A stretch of 64,000 nucleotides of DNA from Paenibacillus antibioticophila (GTDB lineage: Bacteria; Bacillota; Bacilli; Paenibacillales; Paenibacillaceae). The position numbers and the translations under genes were made by a program. Below are positions 27,983 to 36,743 of the stretch, piece by piece. Below the pieces are notes generated by a model. That model was given only the letters and a program-made list of their open reading frames with translations, did no database searches and was not told the DNA's origin. Where the stretch lies: contig NZ_HG005141.1 of assembly GCF_000455265.1 (NCBI RefSeq), forward strand, positions 392,815-456,814. The letters run 5' to 3'. The stretch's first letter is position 1, and each line of letters starts with the position of its first letter.

Positions 27983-29281
27983 TTATATAAACTTCGGAAG
28001 CCAGTTGCCGTGCGCTTCGATCAAATCGTCGCAGAGCGCAGTGATATCGTCCAGCGACAGCTCTGCCGAGGTATGCGGATCGAGCATGGCCGCATGATAA
28101 ATATGCTCCTTTTTGCCCGTCACGGCCGCTTCGATCGTAAGCAGCTGGGTGTTGATATTGGTCCGGTTCAGCGCAGCCAGCTGCGGAGGCAGATCCCCGA
28201 CATAGGTCGGCGTAATCCCGGAACGATCGACGAGGCAAGGAACCTCGACGCAGGCTTCCTTCGGCAGGTTGGTGATCAGGCCGGTATTCATGACATTGCC
28301 GCCGATTTTGTAAGGAATGTTCGTCTCGATCGCTTCCATAATATATGAGGCATACTCCTTCGAACGTTGATGCTCGATGCTCTCGCTTGCAAAGATCTTC
28401 TCACGCATTTCCTTCCATCCGTTAATCTGGTTAATGCAGCGGCGCGGATATTCATCCAGCGGGATGTTATATTTCTCGATCAGTTCCGGATAGTTCTTCT
28501 TGATGAAATAAGGGTGGTATTCCGCGTTATGCTCGGACGACTCCGTTACGTAATAACCAAACCTCAGCATCAGTTCGAAACGTACCATGTCATGGTGCTT
28601 CTCCTTCTGCTTCTCGGCGGCGCGGCGCTTAATCTCCGGATACAGATCAACCCCGTCCTTTTTCACCTCAAGCAGCCAGGCCATATGGTTTATGCCCGCA
28701 ATTTTCGATTCGACGCCGGCAGCATCCATATCCAATGACTTGAACAGGTCGGCCACGCAGACCTGCACGCTATGGCACAGCCCGACCGTCTTAATGCCTC
28801 CCACCGTATTCATGACGTTCGTCAGGACGGCCATCGGGTTCGTATAGTTAAGGAACAGGGCATCCGGGCACACCTCCTGCATATCCTTGGCGAAATCCAG
28901 CATGACAGGAATCGTGCGCAGGTTGCGGAAAATGCCGCCGATTCCCAGCGTATCGGCAATGGTCTGCCGCAGTCCGTACTTTTTCGGAACCTCGAAGTCC
29001 GTAATCGTACAAGGATCATAGCCTCCTACTTGGATGGCGTTGATGACGTACTTGGCCCCTCTCAGCGCTTCCTTGCGATCGGTATAGGCTTTCACAACGC
29101 AAGTGCTGCCCAGCGTGGCTTTTATACTGTTCAGAAGGCGTTCAGAATCGCGGAGCCGCTCCTGATCAATGTCGAACAAAGCCAGCTCGAATCCCTGCAA
29201 GGCCGGTGTCGTCATCACATCGCCGAGCACATTTTTTACAAAGACCGTACTTCCCGCACCAATAAACGTCACTTTTGGCAT
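27983..29281 (-). CDS. melA: Glycoside hydrolase family 4, probable alpha-galactosidase
   Basis: A 432-residue NAD- and Mn-dependent GH4 enzyme. Rossmann motif VTFIGAGSTVFVKNVLGD at the N-terminus; LFDIDQERLRDSERLL; NYTNPMAVLTNV; metal-binding Cys and His in GLCHSVQV and INHMAW; C-terminal VEVPCLVDRSGITP. The CHSVQ form is the alpha-galactosidase/alpha-glucosidase branch of GH4; MelA is the best fit. It acts in the cytosol on alpha-galactosides such as melibiose by NAD-mediated oxidation-elimination. It is divergent from an AraC regulator across 425 bp, as melA is from melR in enterobacteria. Confidence 0.85.
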   Translation of the reverse strand: MPKVTFIGAGSTVFVKNVLGDVMTTPALQGFELALFDIDQERLRDSERLLNSIKATLGSTCVVKAYTDRKEALRGAKYVINAIQVGGYDPCTITDFEVPKKYGLRQTIADTLGIGGIFRNLRTIPVMLDFAKDMQEVCPDALFLNYTNPMAVLTNVMNTVGGIKTVGLCHSVQVCVADLFKSLDMDAAGVESKIAGINHMAWLLEVKKDGVDLYPEIKRRAAEKQKEKHHDMVRFELMLRFGYYVTESSEHNAEYHPYFIKKNYPELIEKYNIPLDEYPRRCINQINGWKEMREKIFASESIEHQRSKEYASYIMEAIETNIPYKIGGNVMNTGLITNLPKEACVEVPCLVDRSGITPTYVGDLPPQLAALNRTNINTQLLTIEAAVTGKKEHIYHAAMLDPHTSAELSLDDITALCDDLIEAHGNWLPKFI

Positions 29282-29481
29282 AATTAATTCCCTCTCTTCT
29301 CCTAGTGATGGAATGGCTTGAGCTTCACCCTAACTATACCTTCCCTTCCCCTGCCCGGACATGGAGAAAAGCATGTTTCGCATGTCATAATCCCATTTTT
29401 TCGATGCCGTTATGATAAGATGGATACTATATAAGTTGATTCGCCTAAGATCTTTCCATGGGTGAGCCAGAGCGAGAACTT

Positions 29482-29655
29482 TATACGGAATTTCGTACAA
29501 GCATCAAACATCCGGCGAAATACTGGGGGCAATTGTATGTTTTTTCGTATAATACTGATGGATATGAGTGATTAGCGGGAGAATTTGTGTGTTTTTCCGT
29601 ACAAACCAGCTGATTCTGCTAGTTTTTGGCGCCGTTTGTACGAAGAATCGTACAT
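29482..29655. repeat. Second array of four TATACG/CGTACAA cores, exact 51-nt pitch
   Basis: Cores start at 29482 (TATACGGAATTTCGTACAA), 29533 (TTGTATGTTTTTTCGTATAA), 29584 (TTTGTGTGTTTTTCCGTACA) and 29635 (TTTGTACGAAGAATCGTACA): three intervals of exactly 51 nt. The cores match those at 1696-1869, and some spacer words are shared too (for example TTAGCGGGAGAAT here and AAGCGGGAATT on the minus strand there). It fills most of the melA-AraC intergenic region. No reading frame. Confidence 0.8.
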
Positions 29656-29706
29656 ATCTCTATCGCAAACTAAAAAGTTAGCTATATAAAGGAGATCATC
29701 CATCTG

Positions 29707-30570
29707 ATGGAGCTTTTTAATTATACTGTCTCTTCGTTGCAGAGAAAGGTCGATCTGAATTTACTCTTCTTCGGCCTGGAAAAATGCGAGCCAAGGCATA
29801 CATGGGGGCCAGGGCTGCGGGATGCGTACATTCTTCACTACATCCATGCCGGACGCGGCATATTCCGGACCAAAGAATCGGCCTTCGAGCTTGAGGCAGG
29901 TCAAGGCTTCGTGATCATGCCGGAGACGCTTGTCCACTACAGCGCCCACGACACCGAGCCATGGCTCTACTCCTGGATCGGCTTCAGCGGGGTAAATGCC
30001 CGTTCGCTGCTGCAGCGCGCCCAAATCGATGCGGAGCGGCCTGTATTCGAAGCGCCCGCGGGAAGTTTTCTGGGAGATTTCTACGAAGAATTGAAAGCAA
30101 CTTACGAGACCCGGGGCAGCGATGTGCATAGCCAAAGCGTCCTCTATCGTGTTCTGGCCGACCTGATCCGCTTCTCGCCTGAGACCCGGGAGGAGCGAAG
30201 ACCTTCTGCGTCCCGCGAGGGGTACATTCGCAAATCCATTGAGTTCATAGAGAGCAGCTATAGCCAAAAAATATCCGTTCTTGAGATCGCCCGCTTCGTC
30301 GGCCTGGACCGTACCTATTTGTCCGGGTTGTTCAAGGAACGTTTCGGTGTGTCTCTGCAAGCCTATCTCCTCGAGTACCGCATGAACCGGGCTGCCGAGC
30401 TGCTCCAGAACCCGGAGCTCTCTGTTAGCGATGTCTCCCGCTCTGTCGGCTACACCGACCCGTTCCTCTTCTCCAAAATGTTCAAAAGGATCATCGGCCA
30501 GGCTCCGACCTTGTTCCGAGAAAAAAGTTCACTCGTTTCCGAAAGGAGAGACCCCGATTGTTCCGATTAA
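29707..30570 (+). CDS. AraC family transcriptional regulator (MelR-like context)
   Basis: 287 residues: an N-terminal cupin-type sensing domain (LRDAYILHYIHAGRGIFRTKESAFELEAGQGFVIMPETLVHYSA) and a C-terminal double HTH (KISVLEIARFVGLDRTYLSGLFKERFGVSLQAYLLEYRMNRAAELLQ and LSVSDVSRSVGYTDPFLFSKMFKRIIGQAPTLFRE). RBS AAAGGAGATCATCC. It is divergent from the GH4 alpha-galactosidase and probably activates it in response to the sugar. Its 3' end overlaps the start of the CdaR-like gene by 13 bp. Confidence 0.88.
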   Translation: MELFNYTVSSLQRKVDLNLLFFGLEKCEPRHTWGPGLRDAYILHYIHAGRGIFRTKESAFELEAGQGFVIMPETLVHYSAHDTEPWLYSWIGFSGVNARSLLQRAQIDAERPVFEAPAGSFLGDFYEELKATYETRGSDVHSQSVLYRVLADLIRFSPETREERRPSASREGYIRKSIEFIESSYSQKISVLEIARFVGLDRTYLSGLFKERFGVSLQAYLLEYRMNRAAELLQNPELSVSDVSRSVGYTDPFLFSKMFKRIIGQAPTLFREKSSLVSERRDPDCSD

Positions 30571-35094: not shown

Positions 35095-35919
35095 TTATTC
35101 CGCTGCCGGCTGATTCTTGATCGCGTCTTCCATGATCTGAGCCCGCTCTTCCTCGGAAATGCCTGCCAGAATTTCATTAATCTTCTCCGTAAGCTCGCTA
35201 CCCTTCTTCAATCCGACAGCAACGGCCGTGTCATCATCCGATGTCGTGAAGCCGTCCGCAAACTCGATATAGGCATAGTTATCGTTGGCCGCCGCCGCAC
35301 TGATTCCTTCCGGCAGCTCCGAGACATAGCCGTCGATGGTTCCTGCCTGCAGAGCTACGCGCATAGCCGGGAAGTTATCCATAGCAGGCTGCTTGTTAAC
35401 ACCCTGAATCTGATCAATAACGGAGTAGTGGAAGGTGTTCAATTGAGCTGTAATTTTGGCTCCGCTAAAGTCCTGAATGGAGGTTGCGCCTTCATAGGCA
35501 CCGCCCTTTTTAACTACCATGATCAGGTTTGATTTATAGTAGTTGTCCGTGAAATCAATCGCTTCTTTACGTTCTGCCGTTGGAGACATACCTGCCACAA
35601 TCGCATCGATCTGTCCGGAGGTCAGGGAAGGAACCAGGCCGTCCCATTCCGTCTTCACGATGACCAGCTTCTTACCCAGCCCGTCAGCAATCTTCTTGGC
35701 GATTTCCACGTCATAACCGCCCGCATACTCGGCACTTCCGTCGATCTTCACGCCGCCGTCTGCGTCTCCGTTCTGGGTCCAGTTGAATGGCGCGTAGCCT
35801 GCTTCAAGTCCCACCTTGAACGTATCACTGTCTTCATTCGCCGAGCTTGAGCTGCACCCGGCAAGAATAATCATGGCTGACATCAGCAGCAATAAGGATA
35901 GGGATAATGTCTTTCTCAT
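35095..35919 (-). CDS. Amino acid ABC transporter substrate-binding lipoprotein (probably lysine)
   Basis: Lipoprotein signal: MRKTLSLSLLLLMSAMIILAGC with lipobox ILAGC, then a Ser/Asn/Glu linker. The mature protein is a family 3 periplasmic-binding fold: FKVGLEAGYAPFNWTQNGD, GYDVEIAKKIADGLGKKLVIVKTEWDGLVPSLTSGQIDAIVAGMSPTAERKEAIDFTDNYY. The acidic and aromatic positions fit a basic amino acid, and the upstream lysine riboswitch points to lysine. The start at 35919 is chosen because it opens the signal peptide; a TTG at 35937 would add six charged residues. Confidence 0.88.
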   Translation of the reverse strand: MRKTLSLSLLLLMSAMIILAGCSSSSANEDSDTFKVGLEAGYAPFNWTQNGDADGGVKIDGSAEYAGGYDVEIAKKIADGLGKKLVIVKTEWDGLVPSLTSGQIDAIVAGMSPTAERKEAIDFTDNYYKSNLIMVVKKGGAYEGATSIQDFSGAKITAQLNTFHYSVIDQIQGVNKQPAMDNFPAMRVALQAGTIDGYVSELPEGISAAAANDNYAYIEFADGFTTSDDDTAVAVGLKKGSELTEKINEILAGISEEERAQIMEDAIKNQPAAE

Positions 35920-35966
35920 TCTTTTTTCACGCTCCAAAATAATAGTAGTAAATGAATAATAATCGA

Positions 35967-36445
35967 GTTCAAAAAGTCAACTTTTCAGCACCGAGAAGGT
36001 TGCGAGAATACGAAGAAGGAGGAACGGATGTAGGCAGACCCTACAGGAACGAAATGCTTCCAAAGAAAGCATACTTCGTAAGCATCCGCTCAGACTTCTA
36101 GGGTGAACGCAAGATTCGGCGTCGATCTTACGAATTTTACGGACATTACGTCTTCTTAGAACTAATTATTGATGATGATGGAAATGTAACGGACATTTTG
36201 TACACTTAGCTAGTAGATTTGAAGGGGAAAGTATGGTTTGAGCGTTCTAAGTGGCGAAAATGTCCGTTAGCGATCAAAATAGTCTGAAATGGCTTGCTAA
36301 CAATCCAAAATGTCCGTTAAAGCACCGAAAGACGATGTAAACCGCTGAGACCTGCTAGGAACGAAGCAGTTTCACGAGAGAGGCCCTTCGACGCGCGGAG
36401 GTTGTCGAAGCAGGCGTTTCGTGATCAACAGGAGACTTTTTGAAC
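35967..36445. repeat. 479-bp intergenic insert bounded by 12-bp perfect inverted repeats
   Basis: GTTCAAAAAGTC at 35967-35978 and its exact complement GACTTTTTGAAC at 36434-36445 bound a gene-free segment. It fills the gap between the lysine-riboswitch terminator (36462) and the binding-protein gene (35919). Both arms carry related words (CTACAGGAACGAAATGCTT on the left, CTGCTAGGAACGAAGCAG on the right), and the middle holds four TAACGGACATT cores. It resembles a MITE-like element, with no target duplication that I can identify. Confidence 0.6.
36137..36319. repeat. Four TAACGGACATT cores, two per orientation, 50-nt pitch
   Basis: Cores: TTACGGACATTA (36137), TAACGGACATTTT (36187), AAAATGTCCGTTA (36257) and AAAATGTCCGTTA (36307). 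Core centres are 50, 70 and 50 nt apart; the first pair is forward and the second pair inverted. This is the same layout as the unrelated-core array at 44412-44589. Confidence 0.78.
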
Positions 36446-36496: not shown

Positions 36497-36534
36497 TGAT
36501 TTAATCATCGTGTCCTTAAAGCCCTCTTTCCCTT

Positions 36535-36743
36535 GACGAGATAGCACAACTTGGCAAACCGGGAAGTCTGTCAAGACAGTCCTGCAGTTATTCACTGCAG
36601 ACCCAGCAAAGGAGCATAGAGCCTGATCCTTCGCTTCGGCGATATTTCCTTCTCCCTGACGTCATAGCTGCTCAAGCTCTGTCAAAGACTGTTAAATACC
36701 GCGCCTCTACCTCACCTTGTAGAAGTGAGGTTATATTCAATTT
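36535..36743 (-). promoter_or_regulatory. Lysine riboswitch (L-box) aptamer
   Basis: On the minus strand the conserved L-box blocks occur in order: GTGAGGTAGAGGCGC (36701-36715), a purine-rich internal segment GGGAGAAGGAAATATCGCCG with GCCGAAGC, CTTTGCTGGGTCTGCAGTG, then GGACTGTCTTGACAGAC and the closing P1 strand GTGCTATCTCGTC (36535-36547), which pairs with GAGGTAG. The match in order and content to the Bacillus lysC leader is clear. It precedes an amino-acid ABC operon, so high lysine should shut the transporter off. Confidence 0.93.

Follow-up and report, generated by a model that had tools for sequence, protein, structure and literature searches.

A stretch of 64,000 nucleotides (the window) from the 5.58-Mb genome G000 carries a regularly spaced set of short palindromes between two divergent genes, which raises the question of what the set is and how it came to stand there. 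The flanking open reading frames are presumably melA (27983–29281, minus strand) and an AraC-type regulator gene (29707–30570, plus strand), names taken over from a sequence-only reading of the window and, for the regulator, also assigned by eye. The intergenic region contains four 20-bp palindromes of the form TTRTAYG-N6-CRTAYAA. Palindromes 1 (TTATACGGAATTTCGTACAA; 29481–29500) and 2 (TTGTATGTTTTTTCGTATAA; 29533–29552) match this pattern without mismatch, and palindromes 3 (TTGTGTGTTTTTCCGTACAA; 29585–29604) and 4 (TTGTACGAAGAATCGTACAT; 29636–29655) each contain one mismatch; none is assigned a strand. The sequence-only reading had described four regular, related units at an exact interval of 51 nt. 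The four units are indeed present between the two genes, but their starts at 29481, 29533, 29585 and 29636 yield a pitch of 52/52/51 bp, which corrects the earlier interval and register. A second locus of identical design, also noticed in that reading, is located at 1695–1869 (palindromes at 1695, 1747, 1799 and 1850; no strand) and has the same 52/52/51 pitch. These eight sites, four per locus, are the only ones in the window with at most one mismatch. Twelve first-order Markov resamplings of the window gave one such site in total and no pair at 50–54 bp, and G000 contains 67 exact palindromes against 0 for a reversed control (140 against 20 at ≤1 mismatch), so the shared design of the two loci is no coincidence, as had been argued.

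The same design recurs elsewhere in G000. Among the matches listed, 26 arrays were read (24 at fetched loci, plus both window arrays) using seeds that imposed no pitch. Exactly four units (≤2 mismatches) compose 24 of them, and the remaining two have six and five units. The 24 fetched arrays are all located outside genes predicted by a simple hexamer score, with neighbouring genes in tandem, convergent and divergent arrangements. In the six-unit array (L018, 2405–2694), a 63-bp step separates units 2 and 3.

BLAST comparison resolves copy subfamilies among the arrays. The melA–araC array aligns over its full length with two others (L017 and L035; 74–77% identity), and the first window locus groups with arrays other than these. 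The kinship of spacers that had been proposed for the two window loci was thus not borne out, because at E ≤ 1e-3 the melA–araC array pairs with L017 and L035, and the first locus is not among its partners. For most full-length pairs, the similar stretch spans about −3 to +178 from the first palindrome, that is, the array alone, and ends within about 20 bases of the outer palindromes. Extra flanking sequence is common to few pairs (L016, L029 or L036 with the first window locus, and L022 with L024). Within the copies, the motif is kept more than the spacers: in 18 pairs picked from the BLAST output, which are not mutually independent, 693 of 720 fixed motif positions, 331 of 432 positions in the palindrome centres and 1134 of 1723 spacer positions agree (gapped alignment). 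Because the arrays were found via exact seeds, which favours the motif, one seed per array was left out; 72 of the 78 non-seed units in G000 still have at most one mismatch, whereas background sequence has about 8 in 14.

Every unit is an inverted repeat, and the units could accordingly be transcribed and fold into four hairpins as an RNA element. The variation within the units argues against such hairpins. At positions 3 and 18, the combinations GC (36), AC (30), GT (24) and AT (15) occur about as often as expected for independent half-sites, and A-C mismatches (60) are as common as G-T pairs (51) among the asymmetric pairs. Strand coherence within arrays is 39, compared with a mean of 46 in flipped controls, and a fraction of 0.905 of 10,000 controls reaches the observed value. 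Given this lack of strand bias in the pairing, the units look like DNA-binding sites rather than RNA hairpins, which the strand test disfavours. Moreover, an Rfam scan of the window at gathering scores gave no match at the melA–araC array, its sole match being a lysine riboswitch elsewhere. An RNA element is therefore an exceedingly improbable explanation. Each half-site behaves as an independent TTRTAYG, as would be expected for a symmetric protein dimer on DNA. The earlier suggestion that the units are protein-bound sites gains support from the palindromes, the pitch of about five helical turns and the missing RNA-strand signature, which together have the look of phased binding.

The sequence-only reading had further suggested that bound protein loops or insulates the divergent melA and araC promoters, a suggestion that draws on the phased palindromes in a divergent intergenic region. 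Homologs of melA were found in 28 of the 39 genus genomes (29 loci), and 28 of the loci have an araC homolog within 1.5 kb. No palindrome at ≤1 mismatch is present in 26 of these 28 regions; the two that contain palindromes belong to G000 and G004 (P. brevis). The intergenic length is 426 bp in G000 and 427 bp in G004, and ranges from 166 to 260 bp in 24 of the 26 array-free regions. G023, the nearest array-free relative by melA identity (96%), has no exact palindrome genome-wide. Its melA–araC intergenic region is 177 bp long, and in the alignment a single block of ∼250 bp is missing that corresponds to 29435–29689 of the window (approximate ends, no strand) and includes the array. A possible 8-bp direct repeat (CTATATAA) was seen by eye at 29427–29434 and 29682–29689 but is not intact in G004. 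The simplest reading of these data is an insertion in the common ancestor of G000 and G004.

The array is located on the araC side of the stretch conserved in other species and adjoins the likely araC ribosome-binding site. It is thus not obviously between the two promoters; the sole promoter-like match (29362–29391) is at chance level. An insulator as a conserved function of melA and araC was rejected, since most orthologous regions lack the array and the array is an insertion. The insertion lies near the araC start, and most sister arrays, which adjoin genes in all orientations, lie outside divergent intergenic regions, so that looping or insulation is barely credible here. The sequence-only reading had staked its proposal on the array being present at orthologous loci or elsewhere in the genome: the former fails in 26 regions, and the latter clearly holds. 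In G008, an unrelated 45-bp tandem repeat occupies the same spot (L087, 3032–3222), and the melA–araC region has therefore gained repeats at least twice.

Differences between G000 and G004 extend to other arrays. At 8 of 15 G000 arrays, the G004 ortholog has no palindrome with ≤2 mismatches, and unit number varies between the two genomes at shared loci. Seven junctions were compared, for which gain in G000 and loss in G004 both fit. Three of the junctions consist of 302 bp with a 3-bp direct repeat, 296 bp without a repeat and 265 bp with an imperfect 14-bp repeat, and the other four have 2 to 173 bp of different sequence in G004. A constant target duplication was not found at the seven junctions, which makes break repair seem likelier than classical transposition.

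In the order, 12 of 198 genomes contain at least seven exact palindromes (range 7 to 390), and the reversed control never exceeds six. Within the genus, 26 exact palindromes are found in G004 and 15 in G008. Two exact units at 52 bp occur in at least 116 stretches, all from Paenibacillus, Cohnella or uncultured Paenibacillaceae among the matches listed. In 80 of these stretches, the arrays have 1 to 30 units, most commonly four (36 of 84 arrays). A total of 409 of the 464 intervals in these stretches are 52 bp, a value favoured by the search pattern, which was fixed at 52 bp, so that these counts are not an unbiased measure of pitch. IMG/VR viral contigs contain zero arrays with two exact units at 52 bp. 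The 390 exact palindromes belong to P. senegalensis (G083), in which the 11 regions read all belong to larger elements that resemble one another. Further tandem repeats, several of them at 51–52 bp, are numerous in P. nanensis, P. oryzae, P. senegalensis and P. sp. J5C2022 (e.g. L126, 6587–6970), and those at 51–52 bp possibly belong to other members of the protein family described below.

An earlier search for a gene family that recurs next to dispersed arrays returned nothing specific. When array-adjacent genes from several genomes were clustered, the cluster spanning most genomes (8) consisted of ABC-transporter-like genes, which were set aside as an abundant kind. A family with one member per genome in 5 genomes also emerged. 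Its G000 member, L020, is a gene outside the window (C1:816927–817607) that encodes a 227-residue protein and lies about 160 bp from its own four-palindrome array. Homologs with 62–78% identity are situated beside arrays in P. puerhi, P. nanensis, Cohnella terricola and P. lemnae. The family is widespread: at E ≤ 1e-5, it has matches in 31 of the 40 genomes of the genus and in 147 of the 198 of the order, with up to 14 per genome when fragments are counted, and a profile search at E ≤ 1e-10 finds it in 46 of 398 class genomes, 19 of them outside the order. The protein was found in none of 50,697 phage records and in one of 72,556 plasmid records, a 2.7-Mb replicon of Paenibacillus cellulosilyticus that is almost unannotated in the plasmid table. 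In five other species of the genus (G003, G008, G009, G035 and G037), a family gene or fragment is located 150–370 bp from melA.

AlphaFold models of the protein are good (mean pLDDT 88 and 87) and point to two domains. Residues 31–141 align with the homing endonuclease I-Bth0305I (3r3p_A) with a Z score of 10.2 and an rmsd of 2.4 (96 aligned of 97 residues), and residues 152–227 align with several MarR winged-helix structures with Z scores of about 10. Foldseek alone ranks MarR structures at the top and gives a nuclease match (3r3p_B) only at E 0.01, with the other model. In PDB sequence searches, the profile matches the winged-helix half only, with a weak match to AdcR (E 6e-5), and the single protein has no match. 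The modelled protein thus combines a MarR-type winged helix, as in the MarR family, with a Vsr-like catalytic fold, as in EDxHD homing endonucleases, and a nuclease fold of this type is likely. Scans of seven members with Pfam and NCBIfam and of three members with PADLOC and PHROGs yielded one match at curated cut-offs, to a generic HTH domain.

The EDxHD motif is named after conserved E, D, H and D catalytic residues. In an alignment of 41 family sequences, E55, E57, D60, D69 and H89 are invariant, and E82 and D92 are nearly so. An (E/D)-x-K motif is found in 8 of the 12 distant paralogs shown, and E-I-M is found in all four L020-clade rows shown. The L020 clade may therefore be catalytically dead, as M replaces K in those rows.

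The link between the family and tandem repeats reaches beyond the L020 palindrome. Repeats at a 50–52 bp offset, defined as at least four 20-bp windows repeated at that offset, are present at 52 of 54 other family loci and in 1 of 25, 2 of 11 and 3 of 29 controls (together 6 of 65), which were taken from one genus. The commonest top offsets are 51 bp (22 loci) and 52 bp (13 loci). Family loci are repeat-rich in general, and offsets outside this range, 36, 40 and 45 bp among them, show repeats at up to 12 of the 54. Outside the order, repeats at 50–52 bp occur at 9 of 20 family loci, which were drawn from 18 of the 19 genomes.

A simple rule by which L020-clade genes and their palindrome co-occur across genomes failed to hold cleanly. 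Among 14 array-rich genomes (12 from the order, plus G004 and G008), nine have a homolog with ≥60% identity (one with a stop), one has a fragment and four have none that close. G008 has a close homolog with a different palindrome beside the gene, and G165 has a 73% homolog (L251) without a palindrome in the 1.5 kb fetched. In P. senegalensis, which has the most arrays, the only L020-type gene seen is a partial copy (L041; 77% identity over residues 1–114). Genomes without a close cognate gene give a mixed picture of array erosion: non-seed units with at most one mismatch number 30 of 36 in P. senegalensis, 15 of 27 in P. herberti and 7 of 27 in G157 and G043. The arrays of G004 (20 of 36) are more eroded than those of G000 despite a near-identical protein.

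The failure of this rule drew attention to the different palindromes carried by other clades. The type TTTGTACGA...TCGTACAAA is found beside L020-clade genes at 10 of 56 loci in nine genomes, sister clades carry TCTATATGA...TCATATAGA, TATATATGA and TGTATGCGA, and distant paralogs have TCAAGTAG...CTACTTGA and further types beside the gene. At 18 of the 56 family loci the palindrome finder came up empty, and its calls at four more had two units and looked like chance, leaving 34 loci for comparison. The Mantel correlation between protein distance and palindrome distance is r = 0.869 over these 34 loci; for the ≥60% clade (n = 30) it is r = 0.600, and in neither case did any of 5000 permutations reach the observed value. 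Shared descent of adjoining genes and repeats contributes, so the correlation reflects co-inheritance and co-variation and is not a measure of binding.

This co-variation also bears on a passive origin of the arrays, as a 52-bp satellite spread by slippage or recombination or as the defunct miniature element of some unrelated transposase, without any function for a cognate protein. Such an origin would suit the long tandem arrays of up to 30 units, the variation in unit number at loci shared by G000 and G004 and junctions that show no constant target duplication. It does not predict the predominance of four units in G000, a similar pitch across unrelated repeats or the covariation of protein and palindrome, and we regard it as quite improbable.

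G000 contains three family members besides L020. For all three of these four paralogs that were examined, copies of the repeat beside the gene turned up elsewhere in the genome. The 51-bp repeat beside the paralog at C1:323179 has 47 matches in 27 separate places in the genome, its own place included. At the paralog C1:802560 (L279), half-sites of the type CTAACGGACATT are set + + − − at 1668, 1718, 1791 and 1841, with a spacing of 50/73/50. Three of four CTAACGGACATT-type sites are found at L034, and a full set composes a third array in the window (36136–36320), with half-sites at 36136 (+), 36186 (+), 36259 (−) and 36309 (−), 2, 1, 0 and 1 mismatches, respectively, and the same 50/73/50 spacing. 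This array lies between the lysine riboswitch (36534–36717, minus strand) and the next gene downstream on the minus strand (35095–35937), which by eye encodes an amino-acid-binding transporter protein. It may have inserted into a leader that the riboswitch controls.

The family genes themselves share a leader. A short hairpin with an AAGNA or AAGCC loop precedes the gene at 50 of 56 loci, a count that leans towards pairing because the finder demanded it; the plain motif is present at 42 of 56. The stem varies with pairing kept (GGCG/CGCC, GGCA/TGCC and GACG/CGTC, and once each CATG/CATG and CGTA/TACG). The hairpin is followed by a T run and, in most printed cases (e.g. L253, L292 and L281), overlaps a terminator-like hairpin, an arrangement that would resemble an attenuator. 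No clear leader was seen at the loci outside the order, and Rfam gave nothing at E ≤ 0.5 at five family loci.

With an array and an attenuator-like leader beside it, the gene looks autoregulated. The protein could thus be a host transcription regulator, with the arrays as operators that control many genes and dispersal as a minor matter; the MarR-like winged helix and the better conservation of palindromes than spacers would fit this role. The arrays, however, adjoin unrelated genes in every orientation and form copy subfamilies that end mostly at array edges. G023 lacks exact palindromes, 8 of 15 G000 arrays lack a palindrome at the G004 ortholog, and P. senegalensis has 390. A regulon of this kind is unlikely, though still worth weighing.

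We consider it probable that the melA–araC array is a dispersed copy of the cognate binding array of a nuclease-like DNA-binding protein family of Paenibacillales. The assignment of cognate sites and their dispersal are well supported. In the proposed mechanism, a dimer of the L020 protein would bind each palindrome (predicted site TTGTACGAAAAATCGTACAA) via its MarR-like winged helix, and with a pitch of 52 bp adjacent dimers would face the same side of the helix at intervals of about five turns. Intergenic regions have received copies of the ∼180-bp array, among them the araC leader region, where the insertion most simply dates to the common ancestor of G000 and G004. The spread may be nuclease-driven, with the EDxHD/Vsr-like domain cutting DNA and break repair producing the copies, as suggested by the modelled fold, by the scatter of the arrays and by junctions that show no constant target duplication. 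Protein bound at the araC leader would act, if at all, as a roadblock.

These features point to a previously undescribed kind of repeat-plus-protein system. No description of such a system was found in the open-licence literature, which does not imply absence from print, and a literature search with the letters of the site gave only seemingly unrelated matches, such as dif sites, lox and primers. More broadly, a new class of repeat systems can be tentatively proposed, at slightly less than an even chance, in which Vsr/EDxHD nucleases with a winged helix would each have their own repeat at a shared 50–52 bp pitch, mostly an attenuator-like leader, spread by cleavage and break repair, and several independent gene/array pairs per genome. 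The many pairs with diverging palindromes constitute a natural data set on the evolution of winged-helix specificity, and the pitch of about five turns, kept with unrelated repeats, makes a direct geometric test possible. The system might also explain part of the intergenic repeat load of Paenibacillus and Cohnella genomes.

Several known systems share single features with the arrays. CRISPR arrays also have short palindromic units at regular intervals, separated by spacers of about 32 bp, but the units here are degenerate and the spacers are related between copies. BOX, RUP and other small interspersed repeats are likewise intergenic, multi-copy and short, whereas the arrays here are phased palindromes, and BOX elements are not known to be accompanied by a dedicated protein family like the present one. 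With regard to the junction features of classical MITEs and transposons, the repeats vary (3 bp, imperfect 14 bp, none and four junctions with filler), with a possible 8-bp repeat at melA–araC. I-Bth0305I (PDB 3r3p) resembles the family in its catalytic-domain fold over 96 residues and, according to a review, dimerises on a target of nearly 60 bp, which is near the array pitch (PMC3943268). The L020 family differs in that its gene stands alone beside arrays of putative sites and its product has a C-terminal MarR-like winged helix.

The closest comparison is with REPIN/RAYT systems. The G000 arrays are dispersed extragenic palindromic repeats, and L020 has a same-type repeat, its four-palindrome array, beside the gene. 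In REPIN/RAYT systems, a different REPIN cluster lies next to each RAYT, and both kinds of system have short palindromes scattered through extragenic DNA, favour a unit of several sites, carry a same-type repeat cluster beside the gene and can have several distinct gene/repeat pairs per genome (PMC3116915). The enzyme is a tyrosine transposase there and an EDxHD/Vsr-like nuclease fold with a winged helix here, the repeat is an inverted doublet there and four palindromes at 52 bp here, and the present system shows no hairpin-strand constraint within units and has an attenuator-like leader before the gene. A Pfam search of seven family members found no tyrosine (Y1/HUH) transposase domain, and the models are Vsr/EDxHD-like with a winged helix. 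Lacking both this enzyme and the within-unit hairpin, the system is not a member of REPIN/RAYT. If the proposal is true, dispersed palindromes paired with their own protein have arisen twice, with enzymes that are unrelated to each other, and REPIN-like systems would be a general strategy rather than the oddity of one lineage.
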